Of a stretch of DNA of 31,760 nt, positions 11,378 through 28,223 are shown one piece after another. The stretch comes from a virus, in the IMG/VR virus record IMGVR_UViG_3300034112_001625, positions 1 through 31,760 of that record; one strand, given 5' to 3'. The notes under the pieces are model-generated. The model saw only the letters and a list, made by a program, of their open reading frames with translations. It was not told where the DNA came from and ran no database searches. The translations under genes were made by a program, and so were the position numbers. Position 1 is the first letter of the stretch; each line of letters begins with the position of its first letter.

Positions 11378-11536
11378 ATGAAAAAGGACAAAAAGGTTAA
11401 AACAATTAACGTGAGTGAAAAACTTCACATGGAGTTGAAAGATTTTTGTAATCAAAATTCTTATAAAATAAACCTTTTTGTAGAAAAATTAATTTCAAAC
11501 GCAATAAGGAGTTTAAATGAGTCAAAAACAGAATGA
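11378..11536 (+). CDS. ribbon-helix-helix protein
   Basis: A 52-residue protein. KTINVSEKLHMELKDFCNQN forms the strand and first helix, and KINLFVEKLISNAIRSL the second helix, which is the Arc/MetJ ribbon-helix-helix layout of small dimeric DNA-binding regulators. Its last 20 bases overlap the start of the GIY-YIG gene at 11517, so the two are translationally coupled and may travel as a unit. Regulation of the nuclease is a reasonable guess. The 64 bases upstream are AT-rich with no clear promoter. Confidence 0.7.
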   Translation: MKKDKKVKTINVSEKLHMELKDFCNQNSYKINLFVEKLISNAIRSLNESKTE

Positions 11537-12329
11537 AAACAATTCAAATGAAAGTAGAATTGAAAAGAAATACAATTATTTTTACAAGATTACCAATTTG
11601 ATTAACGGTAAATATTATTATGGAATCCATTCTACTGATAATTTAGATGATGGTTATATGGGAGGCGGAACTTTGGTACGCCGGGCACAAAAGAAATACG
11701 GCATTGAAAATTTTAAAAAAGAAATAATTAAACAATTTTCCACGCGAAATGAATTATCTGACTATGAGCAGAAAATCGTGACAATCGAATTAATTGAATC
11801 CGAGGAATGTTATAATGTACGAACTGGTGGAAATAGTGAACAGGTGTATAATAATGAACATCGGATTCGTAGATCACTAAAAAATACCGAATTGATGAGA
11901 AATAAAGATTTGCGAAATAGAATATCAAATACACTTAAAGGTAGAAAAATTTCACCAGAAATAATAAAAAAACGAGTATCGAGTTATACTCGTTGTGTGA
12001 AGGTTATAATTGATAATGTAGTATTTGAAACACTAAAATCGGCAGTTAATAAATTAAATATTAGTGCAAAAATAATTAAAATCCGTTGTTTGTCTAATGA
12101 ACCTGAATGGTCTGAATGGAAATTTATAAACCCAGATATTTTAGTTAATAACAAGAAACCGATGTTTAAATTGTCTTATTATTATGAAATAAACGGGGAA
12201 ACGTTTGTACATCACGACGATATAATTGAGAAATATCCTAATTTGAATTATTTTAATATACGGTATAAATGCAAATCTAATTTAGAAAAATATAAAGATT
12301 GGAAAATGATTTATTATGATTATAGCTGA
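11517..12329 (+). CDS. GIY-YIG homing endonuclease (free-standing)
   Basis: 270 residues. The nuclease domain holds NYFYKITNLINGKYYYGIHS (the GIY...YIG part, residues 20-39), DDGYMGGG, an arginine-rich helix and the likely catalytic E84 in DYEQKIV. A NUMOD3-like stretch follows at about 120-155. Two copies of a DNA-binding module (pattern I-D/N-x-x-x-F ... W-x-x-W/D-W-K-x-I) lie at about 160-204 and 222-265. It sits between the late-regulator genes and the gp5-like gene, and its last 14 bases overlap the gp5-like start. It is free-standing: no split gene or intron is visible around it. Such enzymes cut phage DNA lacking the element and spread by repair. Confidence 0.85.
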   Translation: MSQKQNENNSNESRIEKKYNYFYKITNLINGKYYYGIHSTDNLDDGYMGGGTLVRRAQKKYGIENFKKEIIKQFSTRNELSDYEQKIVTIELIESEECYNVRTGGNSEQVYNNEHRIRRSLKNTELMRNKDLRNRISNTLKGRKISPEIIKKRVSSYTRCVKVIIDNVVFETLKSAVNKLNISAKIIKIRCLSNEPEWSEWKFINPDILVNNKKPMFKLSYYYEINGETFVHHDDIIEKYPNLNYFNIRYKCKSNLEKYKDWKMIYYDYS

Positions 12330-13422: not shown

Positions 13423-13770
13423 ATGAACAAAAAAAAATTGATTGAAATGGTTAGAACAATTCTAACAGAAGTCAAAAAAGTAAATATTTCCCAACCAGTT
13501 TCAAATCTTTACATTAAAGGTTCTGGATTAGATACAAACGGAAATATGCGTATAATTGTAGGATTTCCTAATGATAGAGGATTTCCAATACAAACAAACG
13601 GAACACTGCCTGAGACTGATTATATAATTGGCCGTAAAAAACTAAGCCAACTATCTGATTCTGACTTAGAAACAATTGGTACTGAAATAACTAAATATGT
13701 GTCTAAACACGGGTCACCAAATGTTAAATCAAGATTAACAGTTTATAGTTCATATAAAGATAAATTTTAA
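13423..13770 (+). CDS. small protein with candidate capsid targeting N-terminus
   Basis: 115 residues. Residues 1-16 (MNKKKLIEMVRTILTE) match the tag shared by several unrelated proteins here, ending L-T-E before V-K-K. The body (about 99 residues) is a mixed alpha/beta domain with no recognised motif. It lies 42 bases after the gp5-like gene, and its stop directly abuts the next ATG. There is no TAnnTTTG box in the gap, so it is probably read from the gp5-like transcript. I infer a head-packaged protein. Confidence 0.75.
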   Translation: MNKKKLIEMVRTILTEVKKVNISQPVSNLYIKGSGLDTNGNMRIIVGFPNDRGFPIQTNGTLPETDYIIGRKKLSQLSDSDLETIGTEITKYVSKHGSPNVKSRLTVYSSYKDKF

Positions 13771-14304: not shown

Positions 14305-14733
14305 ATGCTAAACAGACGCAAACTTGAAGAAATGATTCGGAAAATTATTAAAGAATCAGATGAACCCGAGACTGTTAAAATTTCTAATATGAAGCGTAAT
14401 ATCATGGGAACCCTTTCATTTGATATGAAAGTTGAAGGAATGAAACTTCCCCAAGACTTCATTGTTTATCCGATGAATGCAGGAGATACCAGTATTAAAA
14501 TTCAGTCCGATAAACGGTTCGGTCGTTTAAACTTATCTACTGGTGAAGGGATAATGAATAAGAAAAACGTAAATAACGCCAGTTCGATTCATTTAAGTAG
14601 AGGTGATAATATGACCTTTAAACTAACTTCTTCGCAATTATCGTCTTTGAAAAATGCTATTAAAAATACTGGCGGAAAATCGGTTGGCAATGCTGGTATT
14701 TCGAGCGATAATTCAGGCGCGATGGAATTATAA
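14305..14733 (+). CDS. small protein with candidate capsid targeting N-terminus
   Basis: 142 residues. The tag is MLNRRKLEEMIRKIIKE (17 residues, cut predicted after I-K-E, before S-D-E). The body begins with strand-rich sequence (KISNMKRNIMGTLSFDMKVE) and ends in a Ser/Gly/Asn-rich tail. Its stop codon directly abuts the start of the J-domain gene, and the two share tag type, so they were probably expressed and packaged together. The body is not recognised. Confidence 0.75.
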   Translation: MLNRRKLEEMIRKIIKESDEPETVKISNMKRNIMGTLSFDMKVEGMKLPQDFIVYPMNAGDTSIKIQSDKRFGRLNLSTGEGIMNKKNVNNASSIHLSRGDNMTFKLTSSQLSSLKNAIKNTGGKSVGNAGISSDNSGAMEL

Positions 14734-15750
14734 ATGAAACTTAGAAGAATACTTTTAGAAATATCCTTAGACGATGCTTTGCAAGCGTTAAACCTTACTA
14801 AGTCAGACTTAGGTGACGAGAGTAAATTAAAACTTGCATTTAGACAAGCAGCATTAAAAGCGCACCCCGATAAAGGTGGAAGCAATGAAGCCATGCGCGA
14901 TGTAAACGATGCGTATGAACTTTTAAAAAAGCAAACAAATCGTTCAAATTCAATGGATGATTGGAAAAGGGATAGAGAAGAAACAAATAAACTATCCTTG
15001 CAAATTTTAGAAATTCTAAAATCAAAAGTCGACTATTCTTCTTTTGTTAGATATTTTAATTCGGTATATGATGATATTTTTACCCATAAAATTGTTAAAG
15101 AATATCCGACTACAAATGAAAAATATGCATACCATGCTTCATTTGAAGTGCAATTTTCTAATCCTGACAGAAGTATAATATTCGTCCTTCAATTATATTG
15201 CAGCACAACAGATGCCCGAAGAACATCTTCATTAGGTTCCGGAGCAGGAAATATAAGTTTTCCGCTTGGTGTAACTGCTTATGGGTTTTACAACAATAAA
15301 AAATTGAAAATTACCCAACGCGATTGGACAACTACTCAAAATCATGATGTTTTGAATTCACCCGAACTTTCTTTCCCAAAAGCAAAACTAGAAAAATTTA
15401 AAGGAACGTCGGTTTCAAAAGTCTTTAAGAAATCAGATATGATATTATATTTGACTAAAAAACTTGGAATGACGTGGGATGGTCAGCAAGCAAGAGTAAA
15501 GGATGTTCCGAAACCGTTGGCAATTGTATTTAGTAGAATGACGATGCTTAGAACGGCTGCTTGGTCTTTGAATTTATACGAAAACAGCCGTTGGGTAAGA
15601 GAACAACGTACAGTTACATTTCCAGAAACAATCGAAACCGCCCAAAAAATAGAAGATTTGGTTAAAAAGGTTGCAAACGCTGATGATGCTGCTGAAATAA
15701 AATCAATAGTTATCAAATGGTCTAATACCGTAAAAGGATTTGGCGACTAA
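14734..15750 (+). CDS. J-domain protein with candidate capsid targeting N-terminus
   Basis: 338 residues. Residues 1-9 (MKLRRILLE) form a short tag ending L-L-E. A complete J-domain follows at about 10-70: the helix AFRQAALKAHPDKGG with H44-P45-D46, and the later helix DVNDAYELLKK. The H-P-D motif stimulates the ATPase of DnaK/Hsp70. Residues about 80-338 are a large alpha/beta domain without recognised motif. A J-domain delivered into the cell with the DNA could recruit host DnaK at once; T4 and lambda both recruit host chaperones but by other means. It begins right after the preceding stop. Followed by a 78-base gap with a promoter. Confidence 0.8.
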   Translation: MKLRRILLEISLDDALQALNLTKSDLGDESKLKLAFRQAALKAHPDKGGSNEAMRDVNDAYELLKKQTNRSNSMDDWKRDREETNKLSLQILEILKSKVDYSSFVRYFNSVYDDIFTHKIVKEYPTTNEKYAYHASFEVQFSNPDRSIIFVLQLYCSTTDARRTSSLGSGAGNISFPLGVTAYGFYNNKKLKITQRDWTTTQNHDVLNSPELSFPKAKLEKFKGTSVSKVFKKSDMILYLTKKLGMTWDGQQARVKDVPKPLAIVFSRMTMLRTAAWSLNLYENSRWVREQRTVTFPETIETAQKIEDLVKKVANADDAAEIKSIVIKWSNTVKGFGD

Positions 15751-15784
15751 GATGAAGAATAAATCATAATAAGTTGTTAATGAC

Positions 15785-15815
15785 TTTGGAAATATAAAAA
15801 TAACATTTACCTTTG
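15785..15815 (+). promoter_or_regulatory. Bacteroidota-type promoter
   Basis: TTTG at 15785-15788 and TACCTTTG at 15808-15815 are 23 bases apart. The -7 box ends 13 bases before the ATG at 15829, the same distance as at 17906, 21330 and 21608, which gives a leader of roughly ten bases. Confidence 0.7.
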
Positions 15816-15828
15816 GGGAACAAAAAGA

Positions 15829-16179
15829 ATGAAGATTAAACTTTTAAAGCAAATGATCATGGAAAATTTATTAGAAGCAACTCAGACATCAATGACCTTT
15901 CCAGTTTTTGAAACTACTGATTCTTCTATTATAAGAATGTTACCACGAGCAGAAGTTATTGGTATCATTGGGTTGAATAAACAGTTGGATCAGATAAATG
16001 TCGAGGGGCTTCACCATTCGTTTGTATCTCTTACTTATAAACGTCCAAATGTTTATTTTGAATTGAACCAGAAAGGAATTAACTTTTTAAATTTGAACGA
16101 CTCAAAAATAAAAAGTAAATTTCAAAAAACGGTGCAAACATATTTCCAAACCTACTTTCAAAAACAACTTGAAAAATGA
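15829..16179 (+). CDS. small protein with candidate capsid targeting N-terminus
   Basis: 116 residues. The tag is MKIKLLKQMIMENLLE (16 residues), ending L-L-E before A-T-Q. The body mixes strands and helices (EVIGIIGLNKQLDQINVEG, SFVSLTYKRPNVYFELN) and ends in an aromatic/lysine-rich helix. It is transcribed from its own host-type promoter. It overlaps the next gene by four bases. The function is unknown apart from the predicted packaging. Confidence 0.75.
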   Translation: MKIKLLKQMIMENLLEATQTSMTFPVFETTDSSIIRMLPRAEVIGIIGLNKQLDQINVEGLHHSFVSLTYKRPNVYFELNQKGINFLNLNDSKIKSKFQKTVQTYFQTYFQKQLEK

Positions 16180-16712: not shown

Positions 16713-17180
16713 TTGCCAGTAAAATATTATCCAGAAGATCAGGTTGACAGCGGATTTGTAGGAATCAAGTTTCCGACAAACGGCAATGGAACATCGAATG
16801 GTGGCTTTTTTAATATGTCAAGGTCAACAGAAGAACAAGCCGTTACCAATTATATTAATTTGTTGCTAACCAAAAAAGGTGAGCGTTATATGCAGCCTAA
16901 TTATGGTATAGGACTTCAATTTAGATTATTCCAACCAAATACTTTGGCGTTGAGGTCGGAAATCGAATTTGAAATTTATCAACAAGCAGCCATTTGGCTT
17001 CCTTATATTAGAAATCATAATATTCAAGTTTTAGAATCCGCTCGTGGTGTTGGAAATGGTGGAACTGATAGTGAAAATTCAATCCAGATCATCATAACAT
17101 TTTCGGTTACTGAATCTGGCGCAAATAAACAAATAACTCTTTTTCAAAATCAGGGAAGAGTTAGTTATATAATTGAGTAA
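16713..17180 (+). CDS. gp25: gp25-like baseplate wedge protein
   Basis: 155 residues, started at a TTG preceded by AAGGAAATA; no ATG is available near the domain start. The diagnostic part is EEQAVTNYINLLLTKKGERY followed by MQPNYGIGLQFRLFQPN: the L-L-x-T-x-x-G-E-R-x-x-x-P-x-x-G form of the T4 gp25 / phage P2 W family. In T4, gp25 is a sheath-initiating wedge component whose conserved E-P-R-like core contacts gp6 and gp53. The C-terminus ends FQNQGRVSYIIE, a sequence repeated at the end of the next gene. Confidence 0.85.
   Translation: MPVKYYPEDQVDSGFVGIKFPTNGNGTSNGGFFNMSRSTEEQAVTNYINLLLTKKGERYMQPNYGIGLQFRLFQPNTLALRSEIEFEIYQQAAIWLPYIRNHNIQVLESARGVGNGGTDSENSIQIIITFSVTESGANKQITLFQNQGRVSYIIE
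17141..17180 (+). repeat. 3' end of gp25-like gene, copy 1 of a 40-base direct repeat
   Basis: It matches 17801-17840 at 35 of 40 positions in the same register, including the stop codon. Both copies encode FQNQ-x-RVSYI-x-E and stop. Four of the five mismatches that I can place are at third codon positions or are conservative, so both copies look translated and selected. Confidence 0.8.
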
Positions 17181-17183
17181 TAA

Positions 17184-17840
17184 ATGCCTTATTTAAATTC
17201 AAACATCCCGGTCATTGACTGTTTTTTCAGAAATGAATATTTGTACAATCACACCAAAGGACATGGTGAGTTTACAAAATGCAATGCTCATTCTGTCGCA
17301 AGTATAGAATCAAGAACTCTTCTTTTTGAAGTTTTTCTTGAAAATGGTGTCAACTGGACAAGACGACCAATTACATCGTTTTGCTGGAAAGAAGATGCTC
17401 CGGTTCATTCTCTTGAAGAACATATATACTGGGACTGTTTCAGTTATTACATTGATGTAAACATTAGACATAGACTTCAAGGTTTAAGTGCTGATCTATT
17501 GTCAATTAGTAATAAAAAGTATTCCGGTGAATACTTATTTACGATAGACTGGGCGCATGAAAATAATATGATGACAAATGTTTCTTTTGCAGAAACTGCG
17601 GAACATAAATGCGCTCATATATTCAAAGTTGATGACGGAAATTTCTTTGCATATCCTAACAATAGGATAGTTTGGAAAGATCGAGCATTTACTGAAAATC
17701 GAATAACATCAAATCCGGGATATATTATAGATAGTAATCTATATTCCGTTGAAGGGAAAACATATTATGAAACGGATGATAAATATCAAACAAACTATTC
17801 TTTTCAAAATCAAGAAAGAGTTAGTTATATAGTCGAATAA
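17184..17840 (+). CDS. conserved phage protein inserted after gp25, carrying a copied gp25 C-terminus
   Basis: 218 residues. The N-terminal part (VIDCFFRNEYLYNHTKGHGE, ESRTLLFEVFLENG, PITSFCWKED, YWDCFSYYIDV, EYLFTIDWAH) resembles a conserved hypothetical protein that I recall from phages and bacteria; no function is known to me. Several Cys and His residues (C13, C33 and others) could bind metal, but no standard finger is seen. The last 13 residues copy the end of gp25, which is unrelated to the rest of the protein. The gene therefore appears to have been inserted at the 3' end of gp25 with the end of gp25 duplicated. Confidence 0.7.
   Translation: MPYLNSNIPVIDCFFRNEYLYNHTKGHGEFTKCNAHSVASIESRTLLFEVFLENGVNWTRRPITSFCWKEDAPVHSLEEHIYWDCFSYYIDVNIRHRLQGLSADLLSISNKKYSGEYLFTIDWAHENNMMTNVSFAETAEHKCAHIFKVDDGNFFAYPNNRIVWKDRAFTENRITSNPGYIIDSNLYSVEGKTYYETDDKYQTNYSFQNQERVSYIVE
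17801..17840 (+). repeat. copy 2 of the gp25 3'-end direct repeat
   Basis: This is the 3' end of the gene at 17184, in frame and sharing its stop with the repeat. See the copy at 17141-17180. The two copies bound one 660-base unit. Confidence 0.8.
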
Positions 17841-17860
17841 GTTAACCAAGTGTTAATGAA

Positions 17861-17892
17861 TTTGGATAATATTTTTAAACCTTTTACCTTTG
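17861..17892 (+). promoter_or_regulatory. Bacteroidota-type promoter of a tag cassette
   Basis: TTTG at 17861-17864 and TACCTTTG at 17885-17892, 24 bases apart and 13 bases before the ATG at 17906. The stretch from about 17852 through the tag codons is nearly identical to 26487-26560. Confidence 0.75.
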
Positions 17893-17905
17893 TGGAGTAA
17901 AAAAC

Positions 17906-18248
17906 ATGAACAAAAAAAAAACTAACAGAAATGATTAAACAAGTTTTAACTGAATCTCGTAAATATTCTGACTTTGTAAAAAAACTCGGAGTAAATGTAA
18001 ATTCAATCCCAGAAGACGGTCAGTATCATGATATTAAAACTATTGATATTGACCCAAATACGTTGGGATTATTTGCACCCGCAATTGAAAAAATGAGTTT
18101 AAGAGCGAGGGGAGGATGGCATCCAAAACGTTCAATTTTTGAATTAGTTTTGGATTACAAATACGAACATCCGTCAGGTTCAAATGGGTATAGTGCAAAA
18201 TTATATAGTAAAGATAATGGAAAAACTTGGGTTACAAAATATTGGTAG
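17906..18248 (+). CDS. tagged small protein broken by a one-base slip in a poly-A run
   Basis: The ATG at 17906 stands in the conserved promoter/leader cassette, but after AAC a run of ten A (17912-17921) puts the frame out, and it stops after ten codons. With nine A, as in the sister gene at 26542, it reads MNKKKLTEMIKQVLTE and joins the long frame that is open to 18248. The full product would be 113 residues. As the sequence stands, only an internal ATG at 17931 gives the body, without a tag. The body (VNSIPEDGQYHDIKTIDIDP ... YSAKLYSKDNGKTWVTKYW) is not recognised. Sequencing error, slippage at the A run, or a real mutation are all possible. Confidence 0.65.
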
Positions 18249-18257
18249 GAATAAAAC

Positions 18258-20144
18258 TTGGCAAATGTAGGAAACAATTATAAACGGGAAGTTAAATACA
18301 TCCAGCGTGATTTTGCTCAAAACAGACTTGCGTTGGTAAATTTCTTAAAAACATACTTCCCCGATCAATTCGGCGATTTTAATGAATCAAGTCCTCAAAT
18401 GGGGTTGATTGAGGCTGTTTCCTATATAGGAGATAGTCTTTCCTTTTATACGGATGTTCAATTAGCGGAATCGCTTTTGTACCATGCGGAAGAAAGAGTC
18501 AACTTATTGAATTTGGCTCAAAGTTTAGGTTATAAACCAAGAACAACCGTCCCCGCAAGCGTTGAATTGGAAGTATTTCAATTGGTTCCAAGTGTAGGTT
18601 CAGGTAATGCAACTAAACCTGATTTTAGATATGCTCTTTACATTGAACCTCAAATGCAGGTTAGTACAACTGATACTGACGCAATTTACTTTTACACCAA
18701 GGATGCAGTCGATTTTAGATATAGTTCAAGTTATGACCCAACTACGGTAACCGCCTATTCAGTTCTTCCAACAGGTGAAATTGAATATTATCTTTTGAAG
18801 AAAAAGGTTAAAGCAGTTTCAGGTCAAATCCAAACAAGAACTTTTTCGTTTACTGAACCCAAGCAATACGATAAAATTGTCATTCCTGAAACCAATATAA
18901 CTGAAATTGTATCAGTTAGGGATTCAGATAATAACGTTTGGACTGAGGTTCCTTATTTAGCACAAGATACAATTCCAGTAGCAATTAGAAATACGCCTTA
19001 TAACGACCAAGTTCTAAGTCAATATAGGGATTCGACTCCATATATTCTTGCCTACAAGCAAACGGAACATAGGTTTGTAACACGACTTCGTAAAGATGAT
19101 TTCTTGGAAATTCAATTTGGCGGAGGTATGAGTTCGGAGGCTGATGAAGAAATACTTCCAAATCCAATGAATGTTGGGTTAGGGTTAGATTATTTTGAAA
19201 GAGTTGGAGATTTATCAATCGATCCGATGAATTTCCTATATACGAAAACGTATGGTTCAGCACCTCAAAATACAACTTTAACAATCCAATATTCCACTTC
19301 AAATGGTTTGGCTGAAAACGTCAATGCAAATACCCTAACGAGAATCGTTTCAAATACCATTGCAAATCCATTTGATATTGTCGACCAAACTGTTTATCAA
19401 ACAATAGTTGATTCCTTAACTGTAAACAATCCAAATGGAGCCTACGGGGGATTAAACCGTAAACCACTTGAAAATATACGTCAAGAGGCTCTTGCTAACT
19501 TTGCAGCCCAAAATAGAGCCGTTACAAAGGAAGATTATATTCTAAGATGCTTCACAATGCCAGCCAAGTTTGGAAGTGTTTGTAAAGCATACGTTGAAAA
19601 TGATACCCAACTTGCAAATTGGGATGATTCCCGAATTCCTAATCCGTTTGCATTGAACCTTTATGTTCTTTCTTATGACGCAAATAAAAATTTTGTTACT
19701 TGTAATGAAGCCGTGAAAGAAAATTTGCGCCAATATTTGAGGCAATATCGTATATTATCTGATTCGTTGAATATTCAAGATATTTTTATTATCAATATAT
19801 CGATAGATATTGAAATTATTACTTATCCGGGAGAAAATTCCAATGAAATTAATTTGCGAGTATTGAATAAGGCCATTGAATTATTTGATAACGATAAAAT
19901 GCAAGTTAATGCCCCGATTATTATTGGTAAAATTACATCGGAACTTGATAAAATAGAGGGAGTTCAGAGCATCGCATCCATTACATTTAATAACGAAATT
20001 GATACAAATCTCGGATATAGCGGAATAGTTTATCCCATCCAAAATGCGATTAGGTCGGGAGTTTTGTATCCAAGTGTAGACGTTTGTATATTTGAAGTAA
20101 AATATCCCCGTTCAGATATTAGAGTTAGAACAATTGATATATAA
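18258..20144 (+). CDS. gp6: gp6-like baseplate wedge protein
   Basis: 628 residues from a TTG start (LANVGNNYKREVKYIQRDF). The start region YIQRDFAQNRLALVNFLKTY, FPDQFGDFNESSPQMGLIEA, SYIGDSLSFYTD and ERVNLLNLAQSLGYKPR matches the N-terminus of T4-like gp6 proteins very closely. Later parts (DFLEIQFGGGMSS, NFAAQNRAVTKEDYILRC, IEIITYPGENSNEINLRV) fit the J-like baseplate family. Gp6 dimers form the iris-like ring that links wedges and is the core of the baseplate. The gene ends KYPRSDIRVRTIDI. A diverged copy of that end lies at 21230-21274, beyond the endonuclease gene. Confidence 0.9.
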   Translation: MANVGNNYKREVKYIQRDFAQNRLALVNFLKTYFPDQFGDFNESSPQMGLIEAVSYIGDSLSFYTDVQLAESLLYHAEERVNLLNLAQSLGYKPRTTVPASVELEVFQLVPSVGSGNATKPDFRYALYIEPQMQVSTTDTDAIYFYTKDAVDFRYSSSYDPTTVTAYSVLPTGEIEYYLLKKKVKAVSGQIQTRTFSFTEPKQYDKIVIPETNITEIVSVRDSDNNVWTEVPYLAQDTIPVAIRNTPYNDQVLSQYRDSTPYILAYKQTEHRFVTRLRKDDFLEIQFGGGMSSEADEEILPNPMNVGLGLDYFERVGDLSIDPMNFLYTKTYGSAPQNTTLTIQYSTSNGLAENVNANTLTRIVSNTIANPFDIVDQTVYQTIVDSLTVNNPNGAYGGLNRKPLENIRQEALANFAAQNRAVTKEDYILRCFTMPAKFGSVCKAYVENDTQLANWDDSRIPNPFALNLYVLSYDANKNFVTCNEAVKENLRQYLRQYRILSDSLNIQDIFIINISIDIEIITYPGENSNEINLRVLNKAIELFDNDKMQVNAPIIIGKITSELDKIEGVQSIASITFNNEIDTNLGYSGIVYPIQNAIRSGVLYPSVDVCIFEVKYPRSDIRVRTIDI

Positions 20145-20157
20145 AGGGAAAAATCTA

Positions 20158-21222
20158 ATGGCAAACAAAAAGTATCATTATGTTTATAAAACTATCAACA
20201 TGATAAATGAAAAATTTTATTATGGTGTTCATTCTACAAATAAAATTGACGATAAATATATTGGCTCCGGAAAAATATTAAAAACTGCTATTAAAAAATA
20301 CGGAAGAAAATCATTTAAGAAGGAGATAATTCAAATGTTTGAATCCAGAGAAGAGGCGTTTAATTTTGAAGCAGATATCATTAAAATGGAGATGATTTCA
20401 GATGATCGTTGTTATAATTTGAAGTCGGGAGGAAGCGGTCATTCAAATTATCGCCCAATGACCGACGAACTTAAACAATATTTTAGTGAATTAAATAGAA
20501 AATACAAACATACTCCTGAAGCTATTGAAAAGATTAGAGAAGCAGGTTTGGGTAGAAAAATGTCAGAACAATGTATGATTAAACGGAAAGAATATTGGAA
20601 AAATAATCCAGATAAACTTAAAGAGCGTGGAATTAAAGTAGCTAATACCAGACGTAAAAATGGAAGTTATGGGCATAGTGAAGAAACTCGTAAATTGATA
20701 TCGCAACGAGAATTTGAATATGTGTCCAGTGGCGGCGTAAAAGCAAGACATTATGAATGTGAAATTGATGGGGTCTTTTATAAAACGATTAAACATATTT
20801 GCGAGGCGTTTAAAATAAATCGTAGAGAATGTAATAAACGACTATTATCAAATGAATACCCGAATTGGAAAATTATTAACAACCAAAAATTGAAACCTCT
20901 ATTAAAAAAAGCGGATAAACGATTTAACAAATGTATTATAGAAAATATCGAATATCAAAACATTTACGAAGCGTCAATTAAATTGAATATTGAAGCAAAT
21001 ATAATAAAAATGAGATTAAAGTCGACTGATTTTCCGGATTGGATACATATAAAACCAGAAAACGCAAGACGTGCGACCAATGGAAAACAATGTTCAATTG
21101 ATGGCGAAATATTCGAATCTGCTACATCCGCAGGTATAATATACGAAATACCCGGTTCGACAGTATTATCAAGAATAAAATCTAAAAAACTGAAATGGGA
21201 ATCTTGGAAATTTTTAGAGTAA
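20158..21222 (+). CDS. GIY-YIG homing endonuclease with three DNA-binding modules
   Basis: 354 residues from the ATG at 20158, which follows AAAGGGAAAAA; an upstream TTG inside gp6 was rejected. The nuclease domain has HYVYKTINMINEKFYYGVHS (residues 7-26), DDKYIGSGK and the likely catalytic E71 in FEADII. NUMOD3-like stretches lie at about 118-138 and 170-184. Three copies of one module (I-D/E-G/N-x-x-F/Y ... I-x-x-R-L-x-S ... P/K-x-W-x-x-I/L) lie at about 200-240, 259-298 and 311-353, matching the two modules of the enzyme at 11517. It sits 13 bases after gp6 and is followed by a copy of the gp6 3' end. Confidence 0.88.
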   Translation: MANKKYHYVYKTINMINEKFYYGVHSTNKIDDKYIGSGKILKTAIKKYGRKSFKKEIIQMFESREEAFNFEADIIKMEMISDDRCYNLKSGGSGHSNYRPMTDELKQYFSELNRKYKHTPEAIEKIREAGLGRKMSEQCMIKRKEYWKNNPDKLKERGIKVANTRRKNGSYGHSEETRKLISQREFEYVSSGGVKARHYECEIDGVFYKTIKHICEAFKINRRECNKRLLSNEYPNWKIINNQKLKPLLKKADKRFNKCIIENIEYQNIYEASIKLNIEANIIKMRLKSTDFPDWIHIKPENARRATNGKQCSIDGEIFESATSAGIIYEIPGSTVLSRIKSKKLKWESWKFLE

Positions 21223-21229
21223 TAAATTT

Positions 21230-21274
21230 AAATATCCAAAAGTAGATTTGCAGATTCGCACAATTGATGTTTAA
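21230..21274 (+). pseudogene. relic of a displaced gp6 3' end
   Basis: Fifteen codons, KYPKVDLQIRTIDV plus stop, align without gaps to the end of the intact gp6-like gene, KYPRSDIRVRTIDI plus stop (20100-20144). Eight of 14 residues are identical and most others conservative; about 29 of 45 bases match. There is no start codon or longer frame. It looks like the original 3' end of gp6, left behind when the endonuclease gene and a different allele of the gp6 end were inserted. Confidence 0.75.
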
Positions 21275-21280
21275 CAACTT

Positions 21281-21356
21281 ATTAACAACAACCAAATAAA
21301 CAACCATTTACCTTTGTGGAGTAAAAAACATGAACAAAACAAAATTATTCGAGATG
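21281..21356 (+). repeat. promoter-leader-tag cassette, copy A
   Basis: 76 bases that match 21559-21634 with three differences, all in the first 28 bases. It contains TACCTTTG (21309-21316), the leader TGGAGTAAAAAAC, the ATG at 21330 and the first nine codons (MNKTKLFEM). The upstream -33 TTTG is not present here (TTAAC occurs instead), so promoter strength may differ from the 17861 and 26497 copies. Confidence 0.8.
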
Positions 21357-21563
21357 ATTGAATCTATTCGAAAAGAACAGTCCATTAAATCTGGTTTTAC
21401 TACTCAACGTGAAGAAATTTTGAAAATTTTAAAAGATAATAATATTATCGCCAAAGTTCGTGATAATCGTGTTGACCTGAAACATGATAAAGATTTTCAG
21501 AAGACTGTTAATTTAATTCAAAAAATATATCCAAGTATCGGTATTACTTACGGATATTATTAA
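21330..21563 (+). CDS. small protein with an atypical tag
   Basis: 77 residues. The N-terminus MNKTKLFEMIESIRKE is homologous to the shared tag through residue 9, but its predicted cut site reads R-K-E instead of L-x-E, so processing is doubtful. The body (EEILKILKDNNIIAKVRDNR, VDLKHDKDFQKTVNLIQKI) looks like a small alpha/beta domain, not recognised. It may be a duplicate that has lost its cut site, or one cut at another position. Confidence 0.7.
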   Translation: MNKTKLFEMIESIRKEQSIKSGFTTQREEILKILKDNNIIAKVRDNRVDLKHDKDFQKTVNLIQKIYPSIGITYGYY

Positions 21564-21634
21564 CAATAACTAAATAAATAACCATTTACCTTTGTGGAGT
21601 AAAAAACATGAACAAAACAAAATTATTCGAGATG
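21559..21634 (+). repeat. promoter-leader-tag cassette, copy B
   Basis: The second copy of the 76-base cassette, with TACCTTTG at 21587-21594 and the ATG at 21608. It follows the end of the previous gene immediately, overlapping its last codons. Sequence similarity to copy A ends in the tag codons, and the bodies of the two proteins are unrelated. Confidence 0.8.
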
Positions 21635-21907
21635 GTTACTAAAATTTTGAATGAAACTCATAAGCCGTCAGTTGAACCGACGTTAATTTCGGACACTAAT
21701 ACGTTCAAATTTAAACCCGTCCCAAGTATGGGATATGGATTTACTGACGTTTATTATAAAGGTCAGCGGATCGCCATTATTAATGGTAGATCATCTGCTT
21801 TACAATGGGTAGCCAAAAACGGAAGTAATATTCCCAATAAGATAATTGATAAATTGGAAAATACGGTAAAACGTTGGGTTGTTCAAACATATAAAATGAA
21901 TAAATAA
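21608..21907 (+). CDS. small protein with candidate capsid targeting N-terminus
   Basis: 99 residues. The tag is MNKTKLFEMVTKILNE, ending L-N-E before T-H-K. The body begins with a proline-rich link and contains GYGFTDVYYKGQRIAIINGR, a beta-rich stretch, followed by a helical end. Not recognised. The tag is nearly identical at the DNA level to the gene before it, whereas the body is not. Confidence 0.75.
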   Translation: MNKTKLFEMVTKILNETHKPSVEPTLISDTNTFKFKPVPSMGYGFTDVYYKGQRIAIINGRSSALQWVAKNGSNIPNKIIDKLENTVKRWVVQTYKMNK

Positions 21908-21908
21908 A

Positions 21909-21940
21909 TTTGGACATTTGAAATAAACTCCTTACCTTTG
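21909..21940 (+). promoter_or_regulatory. Bacteroidota-type promoter
   Basis: TTTGG at 21909-21913 and TACCTTTG at 21933-21940 are 24 bases apart; the ATG at 21961 is 20 bases after the box. It serves the untagged operon 21961-23345, so these promoters are not limited to tagged genes. Confidence 0.7.
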
Positions 21941-23467: not shown

Positions 23468-23872
23468 ATGAAAATTAGAAAGATAATGGAAGAACTTTCA
23501 ATTCCTAAAATTATTAAGATTCTCGACTTCTCTACTTCGGAAGGTAAATTTTCGGTTTATGATTATGAAAAGAATCCAGTTCGTCGTCCGGATATGTTTA
23601 CGGTACTAAAAGATAAAAACGGGTATATAATTAGAAATGCGGTCGTTCCTGTCGAACTTCAAAATAAAGGAATTGCTACTGAATTTTATAAAACAATGAA
23701 TCGGGAGAGTTTACAAAAAACAAAAAAACCGTTACGTTCAACCAGACCGAGAAAATTATTAAGCGGTGAAGTTGTTCATGAATTGAGTTCAGATGGGATA
23801 CGATTGTGGGATAGTTTGGTATCGAAAGGTTTAGCAAAGAAATTAGGAGAAAAGGATTATGTCTTTATTTAA
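23468..23872 (+). CDS. GNAT acetyltransferase-like protein with candidate capsid targeting N-terminus
   Basis: 134 residues. The tag MKIRKIMEE is the short form; the cut could follow I-M-E or M-E-E. AVVPVELQNKGIATEFYKTM (residues 58-77) fits the GNAT motif A, where Q/R-x-x-G-x-G/A binds the acetyl-CoA pyrophosphate (here Q65-N-K-G68-I-A70). The end, ELSSDGIRLWDSLVSKGLAK, resembles the last part of small phage acetyltransferases. Acetylation of a host or phage protein soon after injection is the natural hypothesis. It is followed two bases later by the ADP-ribosyltransferase-like gene. Confidence 0.7.
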   Translation: MKIRKIMEELSIPKIIKILDFSTSEGKFSVYDYEKNPVRRPDMFTVLKDKNGYIIRNAVVPVELQNKGIATEFYKTMNRESLQKTKKPLRSTRPRKLLSGEVVHELSSDGIRLWDSLVSKGLAKKLGEKDYVFI

Positions 23873-23873
23873 T

Positions 23874-24278
23874 ATGAAAATAAAAACTATCTTATTGGAA
23901 ATGGAATCTGATTATAGAGGACAACATCGCGCTCCAAACAAAGATGATGCTCCGCTAACCGATTTGACAATGGTTTATGGTGATGATATTTATTCAAGGA
24001 ACGCAATTCGGTATTATGGTACTGGATTAGATGACGATTTTAATTATTCAATCATTCAAAAAGCCAAAGACAATCCTAACCTTTCAGTAGTTATTTACAG
24101 AGCCGTTCCCGGCGAAGTATCCGAAATAAACGATGGTGATTGGGTAACACTTTCAAAAAAATATGCAAAAACTCACGCCAAGGGAGAAAAAGGTTGGAAA
24201 ATTTTAAGTAAAAAAGTAAAAGCGTCTGAATTATATACTGATGGTAATAGTTGGGACGAATGGGGTTGGAATCCTTAA
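23874..24278 (+). CDS. ADP-ribosyltransferase-like protein with candidate capsid targeting N-terminus
   Basis: 134 residues from the ATG at 23874. The upstream ATG at 23859 lies inside the preceding gene and would bury the tag. The tag is MKIKTILLE, ending L-L-E. The fold-defining residues of an R-S-E ADP-ribosyltransferase are all placeable: R76 in VVIYRAVPGE, the T-x-S strand in GDWVTLSKKYAKTH (S94), and E129 in the end motif SWDEWGWNP. This domain type occurs in phage effector and polyvalent proteins. T4 Alt is also an ADP-ribosyltransferase that is packaged through a capsid targeting sequence and modifies host RNA polymerase, but it is much larger. Confidence 0.72.
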   Translation: MKIKTILLEMESDYRGQHRAPNKDDAPLTDLTMVYGDDIYSRNAIRYYGTGLDDDFNYSIIQKAKDNPNLSVVIYRAVPGEVSEINDGDWVTLSKKYAKTHAKGEKGWKILSKKVKASELYTDGNSWDEWGWNP

Positions 24279-24307
24279 TATGAAAATAAAATAAAACCGG
24301 ATTATCT

Positions 24308-25419: not shown

Positions 25420-25659
25420 ATGAAAATAAAGAATATTATGAATGAATCTACGCAAAAATATTTAAAAGATAAAATCGAAAACCAGATATTTGAATTTGAA
25501 AATAATTTAAACCGATTTAAGAAAGCGTATGAACAAAATTCAAATAAGTATGAAAATGATCCGGAGTTTTATAAGTCGTTGATTAACGATTTCAGTATCA
25601 TGAATGTTCAAATAAAGTCATCTTTAAAACATATAGAATGGTTTATAAATAACGAATAA
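25420..25659 (+). CDS. small helical protein with candidate capsid targeting N-terminus
   Basis: 79 residues. The tag MKIKNIMNE has M at the P3 position (M-N-E). The body is entirely helical and charged (KYLKDKIENQIFEFENNLNR ... SLKHIEWFINNE), like a two-helix bundle. It starts two bases after the structural gene and has no promoter of its own. Confidence 0.7.
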   Translation: MKIKNIMNESTQKYLKDKIENQIFEFENNLNRFKKAYEQNSNKYENDPEFYKSLINDFSIMNVQIKSSLKHIEWFINNE

Positions 25660-25667
25660 TATAATAT

Positions 25668-26480
25668 ATGACAACCAAACTTGCAAATATTCAATACAGT
25701 GATTTAGCCAATAGTAACGCTACTTTGGTGAAATATGTTGTCCCCAAAGAAGGACAAACTTTTGTGTACCAACCTCAATCGCAATTGGATGCAATGTCAT
25801 ACCCACTTTCAGAAAGAAACGGGGGCGGAGCCTATGTAGTTCCAATTCAGGAAGAAAAACTTTATTTGAATTTTATCCCAAATAAAACCGTAATTTCAGA
25901 TATCAGTTTAAACAACTATTTGGAAACTGTATTTACTTATTTCATTCCTGTCGAAATTATTCCTCCTGACCCATTTTCACTTCCGGATGGAACTATTTTC
26001 AGATGCGTTTCCCAAGATTCAGTTCCAGAACCAAAAGAAAGTTATGTTTATTGGATAATTGAAGAAGGTAAAAAGAAAGTTATTCCAAATTACAAAACGT
26101 TGGAAGTGATGTTGTTTGAAAGAAACCAAAACTTACTTTCAGTCAGGATTGTTCAAGAAAATCAATGTATGGAAATTGAAGAAAACGGAGCCGTTCCTGA
26201 TAAAACTTCAAGTTGGAATGAAGATTATAAAGACCAAACCAACTTTGAATTATTGAAAGGATTAGAAAGTTCGGTTAAAAGTGGCGCGGCAATTGCAAAT
26301 GACGCAAAAGCAGCCGCAGGTGAACAAATTGCAGCCGTTAAAGCAGAAGCGGAAGCAAATAAAGCAGCCGCAGAAGCGGCAAAGGCCGAAGCGGAGGCAG
26401 CCAAAGCAGCAAGTGAACAAGCAATTGTAGAAGCGCAAGCGCAAATTGCAGCAATTCAAGCACAACAAAATAATTCATAA
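25668..26480 (+). CDS. virion protein with alanine-rich coiled-coil tail
   Basis: 270 residues. The N-terminal part (ATLVKYVVPKEGQTFVYQPQ, SYPLSERNGGGAYVVPIQEE) is beta-rich. Residues about 205-265 are built of A-E-A-x-K-A-A-type heptad-like repeats, a long alanine-rich helix or coiled coil, ending AQQNNS. Phage structural proteins with similar tails act as stalk or trimerisation elements. The low-complexity DNA (26280-26470) could allow repeat-number change. No family recognised. Confidence 0.6.
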   Translation: MTTKLANIQYSDLANSNATLVKYVVPKEGQTFVYQPQSQLDAMSYPLSERNGGGAYVVPIQEEKLYLNFIPNKTVISDISLNNYLETVFTYFIPVEIIPPDPFSLPDGTIFRCVSQDSVPEPKESYVYWIIEEGKKKVIPNYKTLEVMLFERNQNLLSVRIVQENQCMEIEENGAVPDKTSSWNEDYKDQTNFELLKGLESSVKSGAAIANDAKAAAGEQIAAVKAEAEANKAAAEAAKAEAEAAKAASEQAIVEAQAQIAAIQAQQNNS

Positions 26481-26496
26481 CAATATGTTAATGAAT

Positions 26497-26527
26497 TTTG
26501 AAAATAATTTTAAACCTTTTACCTTTG
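26497..26527 (+). promoter_or_regulatory. Bacteroidota-type promoter of a tag cassette
   Basis: TTTG at 26497-26500 and TACCTTTG at 26520-26527, 23 bases apart; the ATG at 26542 is 14 bases after the box. The region about 26487-26560 repeats 17852-17925 almost exactly. Confidence 0.75.
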
Positions 26528-26541
26528 TGGAGTAAAAAACA

Positions 26542-26838
26542 ATGAACAAAAAAAAACTAACAGAAATGATTACTAAAATTTTGAACGAAGATATTTCGGT
26601 GGGAAAATTTTATTATGACAACAGAAAAGATAAAACATTTCGAATTATATCAGTCGACGGGACTGATAGGAATGGAAATAGAAGGTTGGATAAAAAAACT
26701 GATATTGGAATTCAATATTATGATTTTAAAACAAAAAGACCTATTGGTAATATAGAAACCGTGGACAAGAGTGAATTTGATTATATGGTCAGTAAAGGTC
26801 AATGGTCTGAATGGAAACAAGATTTTTTTAGCAAGTAA
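26542..26838 (+). CDS. small protein with candidate capsid targeting N-terminus
   Basis: 98 residues. The tag is MNKKKLTEMITKILNE, ending L-N-E before D-I-S. Its A run is nine bases, which keeps the frame open, in contrast to the sister gene at 17906. The body (VGKFYYDNRKDKTFRIISVD, DIGIQYYDFKTKRPIG) is a small beta-rich domain, perhaps SH3-like, not recognised. Confidence 0.75.
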   Translation: MNKKKLTEMITKILNEDISVGKFYYDNRKDKTFRIISVDGTDRNGNRRLDKKTDIGIQYYDFKTKRPIGNIETVDKSEFDYMVSKGQWSEWKQDFFSK

Positions 26839-27263: not shown

Positions 27264-28223
27264 ATGAAAATCAAACATCTATGGAACCTACTCAAAGAAG
27301 GTTCAACTCAGGAAGAACAATTTGGTAAAAATCTTATAGCCTCCGGGTGGACTATCAAGATTAATTATTACATTCCGTTGATTAAAATTAAAAATCCAGA
27401 AGGAAAAGAGACTGAAATTGACGGCAATGATGCGGATAAAATTTTATCTAAAATTAAGATGGGTCAAGACGAAAAGACTTGGGTACTTGGATATTTACAT
27501 AAAACAAATGCGTTGAACGAACATACGTTGACCGAGGGAGTTTATGATAAAGGAATTTTAAAGGCTATATTTTTAATTGGGGGGCCGGGAAGTGGTAAAT
27601 CTTACGTTATCAACCAGTTATTCGGAATTTCATCCAAGACCACATTTTCAAGGCATGGTCTTAAATTAGTAAACCCCGATCCGGTATTTGAAAAATTATT
27701 ACGACAAGCCTCAATTAATCCCTCTGATTTAGATTCAATTTCAAAGGAAGACCCGGAAAGATATTCAAAAGTTATTGATCCTATCCGAACAAGAGCAAAA
27801 GAAGTTGAAACTGAAATTGAAAAGAATTACATTTCGGGTAGAATTGGGATGGTTTTGGAAGGAACTGGTAAAAACGTGACTTCTATAAAAAATTTGAAAA
27901 ACCGTCTTGAAGATATTGGTTACGATTGTATGATGATTTATGTCAACACTGACCTTGAAACAGCAAAAAAGCGGAATCAAATGCGAGATAGAACTATTCC
28001 GGAAGATTTACTTGTAAGTATGTGGAATAACTCGCAAAAAAACCTTGGCGATTTGCAACGATTGTTTGGTCCGATGAATACTTTGATTATCGATAACTCA
28101 AATAATTCAAAAATTGGTTCAGATATATCAAAGGCAATAGAAAGATTTATGCAAAAGCCTGTAACGAATCCTGCCGGAAAAATGTGGATTAAACAAGAAC
28201 TTATGAAAAAGAGTCGAAAATAG
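27264..28223 (+). CDS. P-loop kinase (zeta-toxin-like) with candidate capsid targeting N-terminus
   Basis: 319 residues. The tag MKIKHLWNLLKE ends L-K-E. Residues about 13-90 are a small separate domain (LIASGWTIKINYYIPLIKIK). Then come two more L-x-E sites, A-L-N-E86 and T-L-T-E91, directly before the kinase domain. Walker A is IGGPGSGKSYV (106-116); VNPDPVFEKLL could be the substrate-side D; GMVLEGTGKN is a second strand; DLETAKKRNQMRDRTI is the arginine-rich lid. The layout fits zeta-toxin/polynucleotide-kinase-type enzymes. The substrate is unknown. Processing at E91 would release the bare kinase (about 228 residues). Confidence 0.75.
   Translation: MKIKHLWNLLKEGSTQEEQFGKNLIASGWTIKINYYIPLIKIKNPEGKETEIDGNDADKILSKIKMGQDEKTWVLGYLHKTNALNEHTLTEGVYDKGILKAIFLIGGPGSGKSYVINQLFGISSKTTFSRHGLKLVNPDPVFEKLLRQASINPSDLDSISKEDPERYSKVIDPIRTRAKEVETEIEKNYISGRIGMVLEGTGKNVTSIKNLKNRLEDIGYDCMMIYVNTDLETAKKRNQMRDRTIPEDLLVSMWNNSQKNLGDLQRLFGPMNTLIIDNSNNSKIGSDISKAIERFMQKPVTNPAGKMWIKQELMKKSRK

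Follow-up and report, generated by a model that had tools for sequence, protein, structure and literature searches.

Our data indicate that a family of short N-terminal peptides very probably acts as a set of packaging labels on cargo genes, much as the CTS does in T4, with the labels also serving as recombination sites through which cargo is exchanged. In the window, by which we mean the whole stretch of 31,760 nucleotides analyzed, we observed copies of these tags in front of unrelated bodies, exchange points in or beside the tag, and constraint on the tag's amino acids; elsewhere, one of the bodies stands behind a T4-type CTS. The source record, a 31.8-kb virus fragment, comes from a T4-like phage whose host is probably a member of the Bacteroidetes. 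A tape measure gene and baseplate genes of gp25-like and gp6-like type were identified in it, and a gp6 comparison puts Microcystis phage Mel-JY01 (49%) first among cultured relatives, followed by the Flavobacterium immuto phages (39%), which have a T4-type portal, an S77 prohead protease, and a gp23 capsid protein. We found 29 related IMG/VR loci, and one relative, G004, shares about 94% identity with the window. Two baseplate genes frame the slots discussed below:

16713..17180, plus strand: gp25-like baseplate wedge gene (phrog_43, E 9e-10), conserved frame between slots
18258..20144, plus strand: gp6-like baseplate wedge gene (phrog_219, E 6e-21), conserved frame between slots

The initial annotation had reported that positions 21281-21356 and 21559-21634 match at 73/76 bases, and this count proved exact, with both flanks at chance level; the best match to the 21281 76-mer in 50 Markov-shuffled windows was 44/76. 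The full copies, beginning at 21279 and spanning 21557-21637, are 95% identical over 81 nt. A second pair, placed by the annotation at about 17852-17925 and 26487-26560, is likewise real and extends to 17843-17954 and 26478-26589 as an ungapped match of 84% identity; this pair differs by two single-base A indels. The sequence said to be common to all copies before the ATG, the 20-mer ACCTTTGTGGAGTAAAAAAC, occurs exactly four times ahead of a start codon, with 0 occurrences expected from shuffles. The copied unit has a promoter of the Bacteroidetes type, followed by a leader and by part of an N-terminal tag that spans 16 codons and ends in (I/L)xE; the promoter box TACCTTTG agrees with the Bacteroidetes -7 consensus TANNTTTG (PMC6847099). 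The nine shared codons of the annotation do give way to unrelated bodies, but the shared peptide is longer, running to Glu16. The 21608 tag is a mosaic, with 0/27 differences to 21330 in codons 1 to 9 and 1/18 to 26542 in codons 11 to 16; therefore, the DNA identity of the 21281/21559 pair ends inside the tag, short of the tag/body border. The features of these cassettes, and of a related one, are as follows:

15764..15828, plus strand: related promoter and leader TACCTTTGGGGAACAAAAAGA, from the repeat search; 91% identical to G004
15829..15864, plus strand: tag MKIKLLKQMIME, 12 codons; G004 DNA identity stops at its last codon
15865..16179, plus strand: body of the 15829 gene; G004 46008 has an unrelated 75-aa body instead
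17843..17905, plus strand: promoter and leader, copy A1 (repeat match), identical to the orthologous G004 slot
17906..17954, plus strand: tag MNKKKLTEMIKQVLTE, out of frame in the window (A10 run)
17955..18248, plus strand: body 3; 30 codons identical to G004, then replaced
21279..21329, plus strand: promoter and leader, copy B1, with the -7 box TACCTTTG at 21309-21316; 95% identical to 21557-21637
21330..21377, plus strand: tag MNKTKLFEMIESIRKE, 16 codons, first gene of the pair (shared N-terminus), ending in RKE
21378..21563, plus strand: body 1, no family match (Pfam none), unrelated to the 21608 body
21557..21607, plus strand: promoter and leader, copy B2 (repeat match to B1), overlapping the stop of the gene before
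21608..21655, plus strand: tag MNKTKLFEMVTKILNE, mosaic (codons 1-9 like 21330, codons 11-16 like 26542)
21656..21907, plus strand: body 2, no family match (Pfam, PHROGs none)
21933..21940, plus strand: -7 box of the following untagged gene, fusion point of the upstream part of the B promoter in G004
26478..26541, plus strand: promoter and leader, copy A2 (repeat match to A1)
26542..26589, plus strand: tag MNKKKLTEMITKILNE, recombinant, with a crossover between codons 10 and 11
26590..26838, plus strand: body 4, with orthologs in G004 (56079) and L006

The annotation's tag is present in both pairs, but the 17906 copy is out of frame because its A-run is A10 (A9 in G004). This run, at 17912-17921, is A9 and in frame in G004 47482, A10 in the window and L007, and A11 in L005, in contigs that are otherwise almost identical; it is either a phase-variable tract that slips or an artifact of assembly. 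Translation from a second ATG inside the same gene, at 17931, would still yield MIKQVLTE.

The tag is not confined to the four genes of these two pairs. At least 12 tagged genes lie between 13.4 and 28.2 kb, among the baseplate genes, so that at least 8 are additional to those four, 7 of them without a TACCTTTG-type promoter. A long tag, MNKxKLxEMxxxILxE, begins genes 13423, 14305, 17906, 21330, 21608, and 26542, and a short one, MK[IL][KR]xI[LM]xE (9 codons) or a 12-codon form, begins genes 14734, 15829, 23468, 23874, 25420, and 27264. Tagged genes without their own cassette, together with one probable remnant, are the following:

13423..13770, plus strand: tagged gene MNKKKLIEMVRTILTE, no promoter of TACCTTTG type; absent in G004
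14305..14733, plus strand: tagged gene MLNRRKLEEMIRKIIKE (shared N-terminus)
14734..15750, plus strand: tagged gene MKLRRILLE with a J-domain body (DnaJ PF00226, E 8.7e-8)
23468..23872, plus strand: tagged gene MKIRKIMEE; absent in G004, joint in ATGAAAAT
23874..24278, plus strand: tagged gene MKIKTILLE; its body recurs in many phages, either after other tags or within giant proteins
24280..24294, plus strand: probable tag remnant ATG AAA ATA AAA TAA; G004 has two tagged genes there
25420..25659, plus strand: tagged gene MKIKNIMNE; a different gene in G004
27264..28223, plus strand: tagged gene MKIKHLWNLLKE with a Zeta-toxin-like kinase body (PF06414, E 4.6e-8)

A pattern-free scan of the window for shared N-termini returned 9 pairs versus 0.0 in shuffles, and the tag pattern occurs at only 2/3810 internal Met positions. 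The residue preceding the final xE is I, L, V, or M in 11/12 window tags, a test that is partly circular because the search pattern itself demanded an (I/L)xE-like ending, with the strict I/L rule looser in a few tags; the exception, 21330, fits (I/L)xE poorly because it ends in RKE (IRKE). Independently of this ending rule, all long tags end at E16. Tagged proteins have 77 to 338 residues and are mostly single-domain. A regular expression found 76 tagged proteins in relatives, a few of them spurious matches, in 45 body families; its strict form found few tags in G001, G006, G009, and G010, which may use other tags. Relaxing the DNA pattern of the promoter-tag cassette gave no matches beyond the already known close relatives.

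Comparison with relatives shows exchange of tags and bodies by recombination. In the 15829 slot, the window and G004 46008 share promoter, leader, and tag, the identity stops at codon 12 (the GAA of MIME), and the bodies behind this common tag are unrelated. Such a perfect swap at the tag/body border was seen as one event only. The other joints fall elsewhere. G004 lacks both the 21330 and the 21608 gene, and its positions 51043-51091, the upstream part of the 21279 promoter, are joined to window sequence from 21921 onward, which is the leader of the untagged gene that follows, across a 10-bp microhomology (TTACCTTTGT); half of a tagged gene's promoter thus drives an untagged gene in G004. Within tags, 26542 has 0/30 differences to G004 47482, the occupant of the 17906 slot, over codons 1 to 10 and 6/30 to its own ortholog, while over codons 11 to 40 it has 59/90 and 0/90, respectively; at 2.2% divergence, 6/30 mismatches to the ortholog have a P of 4e-5. 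In the 17906 slot itself, DNA identity to G004 runs to 18042. Whole genes also come and go: 23468 is missing from G004, L006 lacks the entire gene 27264, which in G013 stands in another slot with another N-terminus, and the window keeps ATGAAAATAAAATAA at the place of G004 tagged genes 52950 and 53423. More-distant relatives carry other tagged genes in the same gaps between conserved baseplate genes. Between the window and G004, tagged genes were variable in 12/22 cases and other genes in 9/55 (Fisher OR 6.1, p 0.0014), a count that takes genes of both genomes, so that its rows are non-independent. A candidate G004 homolog of the 23468 body was rejected, as the match, to an ART gene, had 28% identity and an E of 0.002 and included the tag.

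The exchange points are therefore the -7 box, the tag start, the tag interior, and the tag Glu codon. The prediction that DNA identity in relatives would end at the tag/body border holds at the 15829 slot, but joints also lie at the -7 box, the tag start, and inside the tag. Similarly, the ready-made promoter-plus-tag unit that had been proposed exists as copies, but the promoter is no fixed part of what moves, since most tagged genes have none (5 do: 15829, 17906, 21330, 21608, and 26542) and half of the 21279 promoter precedes an untagged gene in G004.

A simpler history would be duplication of whole genes followed by fast divergence of the bodies, with the tag merely the slowest part. The tandem 278-bp layout of 21330 and 21608 resembles a tandem duplication, and the tags are under constraint, as this scenario would have it. 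However, we found no homology between bodies behind the cassette copies (blastp; phmmer at E<=10), a homology that the initial annotation had named as evidence for duplication, while flanking synonymous sites of the 21281/21559 copies are unchanged. Together with the abrupt edge at 15829, behind which a 94%-identical relative has a wholly different body, and with the recombinant tags, this makes duplication and divergence very unlikely and bears out the annotation's preference for recombination.

What recombination leaves intact is a peptide. Identity drops to background directly past the last Glu codon of the tag; within tags, pS is 0.54 to 0.63 and pN 0.20 to 0.25 (0.16 in the MTAFDxAW tags of G019, described below), and in the codons downstream pS and pN are similar, both about 0.65 to 0.79. 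Constraint on the tag (pS > pN) with equal rates behind it therefore argues that selection keeps the peptide. Were the shared start an A-rich initiation region acting in translation or expression, with no role as a protein address, the preference of Bacteroidetes initiation for A-rich starts with A at -3 (PMC6847099) and the matching leader AAAAAACATGAACAAAA would be accounted for. Such an element would not explain why synonymous positions change while residues are kept up to Glu9, Glu12, or Glu16, after which constraint ends, nor why GC-richer tags (MTAFDxAW) in other lineages, and a T4-type CTS in Vibrio phage VH7D, occupy the same place; we regard it as highly improbable.

The body of gene 23874 links these tags to a characterized signal. 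It has 231 relatives in IMG/VR, often as a domain of proteins with hundreds to thousands of residues and elsewhere as a small protein straight behind a short N-terminus, which neighboring genes often share. In VH7D, a cultured member of the Straboviridae, this body follows the T4-type CTS MKTYTEFLSE, and aligning MKTYTEFLSE/YHMQHRAP with the window's MKIKTILLE/MESDYRGQHRAP (the slash marking the border) places the tag at the CTS position before the same body. Further lineages have it behind MKSFQQHITEA (L110), MQAHEFIFE/MRAYQFTTE (L096, L100), MRLNQLWLE (L103, L122), and other tags, and in L096 and L100 the neighbors carry an M[KR]xxEFITE-type N-terminus. An AlphaFold model of 23874, built with 50 sequences, has a mean pLDDT of 88.9, with residues 1-13 below 50. 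PDB searches found nothing with the family's sequences and no significant fold match with the model; we do not claim an ART fold for this body, for which there were weak matches only (ART2.2, KptA-like 7kw8, CNFy).

In G018 and G019, the neighbors of the 23874-type gene share the N-terminus MTAFDxAWxIVK, which in G019 stands on 11 adjacent genes with no related bodies among them. The G019 terminase, portal, capsid, and head protease belong to other families, and a search for an S77 protease there gave no match, so this arrangement may reach beyond T4-type phages, its tag being a putative packaging signal. At L173 (73-8844) and L172, MTAFDxAWxIVK stands on tandem unrelated genes in a phage whose head genes are non-T4. 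Other shared N-termini were seen in further phages. Flavobacterium phage immuto (L074 2294-23576) has two tag families of its own, MKKSQLRxIIKEEL on 4 genes (one of which belongs to the head operon) and MENFDLKKFLVENKLT on 3 genes. On the reverse strand of G013 (L072), genes 8013 and 8735 of the reversed contig carry MN[KR]KIKILENMIRxE in tandem with similar leader and tag DNA and unrelated bodies, of which the first contains many WxxGxW repeats. Seven proteins of G014 (L175-L181) start with MEEKLKYKIRSxVEKLGLxQSxxxFG and form either a paralogous family or another shared N-terminus, and 3 genes of Mel-JY01 (L075 26583-28842) start with MNTEEIDFKFN.

The connection to the phage head is indirect because the window has no head genes, and the protease is known only from relatives because the window and G004 contigs are fragments without them. 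In the relative G002, a gp21-type S77 protease (E 2e-31) is followed by a gene starting with MKVTQFRQLIREEIKKVLNE, similar to the window tag, and the capsid protein propeptides of immuto, G002, and G014 have a common (V/I)xE-A site. Although every tagged gene of the window sits between baseplate genes, targeting to another virion part such as the tail or baseplate is hardly credible given the (I/L)xE ending of the tags, the tagged gene in the head operon of both G002 and immuto, the CTS equivalence in VH7D, and the predicted injection from the head of related polyvalent proteins (PMC5512222).

Packaging into the head thus remains our preferred function for the tag. In this scenario, the short, basic, amphipathic tag would recruit its protein into the prohead core like the T4 CTS, a gp21-type protease would cleave behind its last Glu, and the freed body would leave the head along with the DNA, to act early as an effector or in anti-defense. 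The annotation had already called these proteins packaged, which fits, above all with a T4-type CTS before the same body in VH7D, but packaging, cleavage, and injection are steps that we infer. Tag, leader, and in some cases promoter are nearly the same from gene to gene and could thus provide short recombination homology, by which promoter and half a tag may be moved before another gene, bodies may be swapped behind one tag, and whole cargo genes may be gained or lost.

Analogous features are well established in T4, where the CTS has been experimentally proven to direct packaging and was proposed as a means of incorporating various proteins (PMC9026906). The T4 internal proteins have only the leader in common and inhibit different restriction enzymes (PMC12373910), their bodies being anti-restriction proteins (PMC12373910, PMC3012670). 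As in the window, IPI, IPII, and IPIII have a short N-terminal propeptide ending in (I/L)xE on unrelated bodies, and their gene content varies between close phages. We found that ipII and ipIII DNA is identical from ~16 bases upstream of the start through the CTS end and then unrelated; because this pattern of equal leader and CTS before unrelated bodies is alike, the window system is a variant of an already known arrangement. It differs in its tag sequence, which bears no resemblance to the T4 CTS past MK...xE, in its Bacteroidetes-type promoters, in its body families (a Pfam search of window bodies gave no IPI/II/III match), in the crossovers within its tag, and in its 12 or more genes set within the baseplate cluster. 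The cluster is best read as a version of the T4 CTS/internal-protein system in Bacteroidetes phages, with recombination sites provided by promoter, leader, and tag.

Two other T4-type elements invite comparison. T4 Alt is a packaged, cleaved ADP-ribosyltransferase, and 3 tagged genes of relatives similarly have an ART body behind a predicted cleavable N-terminus; these bodies (G004 42841, E 2e-22; G004 21456, E 4e-13; L021, E 2.5e-9) are of the ART-PolyVal rather than the Alt family, and their packaging is only predicted. PeSLs, reportedly described by Arbiol et al. in 2010 as mobile regulatory cassettes of T4-type phages, resemble the window cassettes as promoter-bearing repeats mediating gene shuffling. 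Unlike PeSLs, the window cassettes have no conserved stem-loop, with none found beside the promoter and folding no better than shuffles in 5 cassettes, and the part they have in common is coding, with the tag as a component. A further comparison is with polyvalent proteins, which occur in phages and conjugative elements and whose injection with the DNA from the head is predicted (PMC5512222). They share the 23874 body and ART domains with the tagged set; there the domains are fused in one giant protein, with >=2 effector domains per polypeptide, whereas the window has separate small proteins, mostly of a single domain and each with its own tag. Most tagged bodies have no assigned family; the ART-PolyVal, Zeta-like kinase, and DnaJ domains among the others would suit injected host-modifying proteins.

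Most phage genes have no known function, and a tag marking injected cargo would allow candidate effectors and anti-defense proteins of uncultured phages to be listed from sequence alone. As one body is re-tagged in several lineages, which genes are injected becomes directly testable. It is possible, if not quite probable, that tailed phages in general have lineage-specific packaging tags before effector bodies that can be exchanged, a trait that would have arisen more than once, including in G019 with its non-T4 protease, with bodies hopping between lineages and being locally re-tagged. The window and its relatives add DNA-level evidence on cargo exchange, an idea put forward for T4 (PMC9026906).

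Finally, some further features of the window were noted. A GIY-YIG homing endonuclease gene (20134-21273) stands behind the gp6-like gene; after it comes KFKYPKVDLQIRTIDV*, which duplicates the gp6 C-terminus, and in G004 this site is taken by a different gene (50035-51048). A second GIY-YIG-like gene lies at 11517-12329, with a G004 counterpart that is only partly similar. The end of the gp25-like gene (17141-17180) is repeated (88%) at 17801-17840, the end of the next gene, 17184-17840 (phrog_3704), a layout that would fit insertion of this next gene along with a duplicate of the gp25-like gene end.
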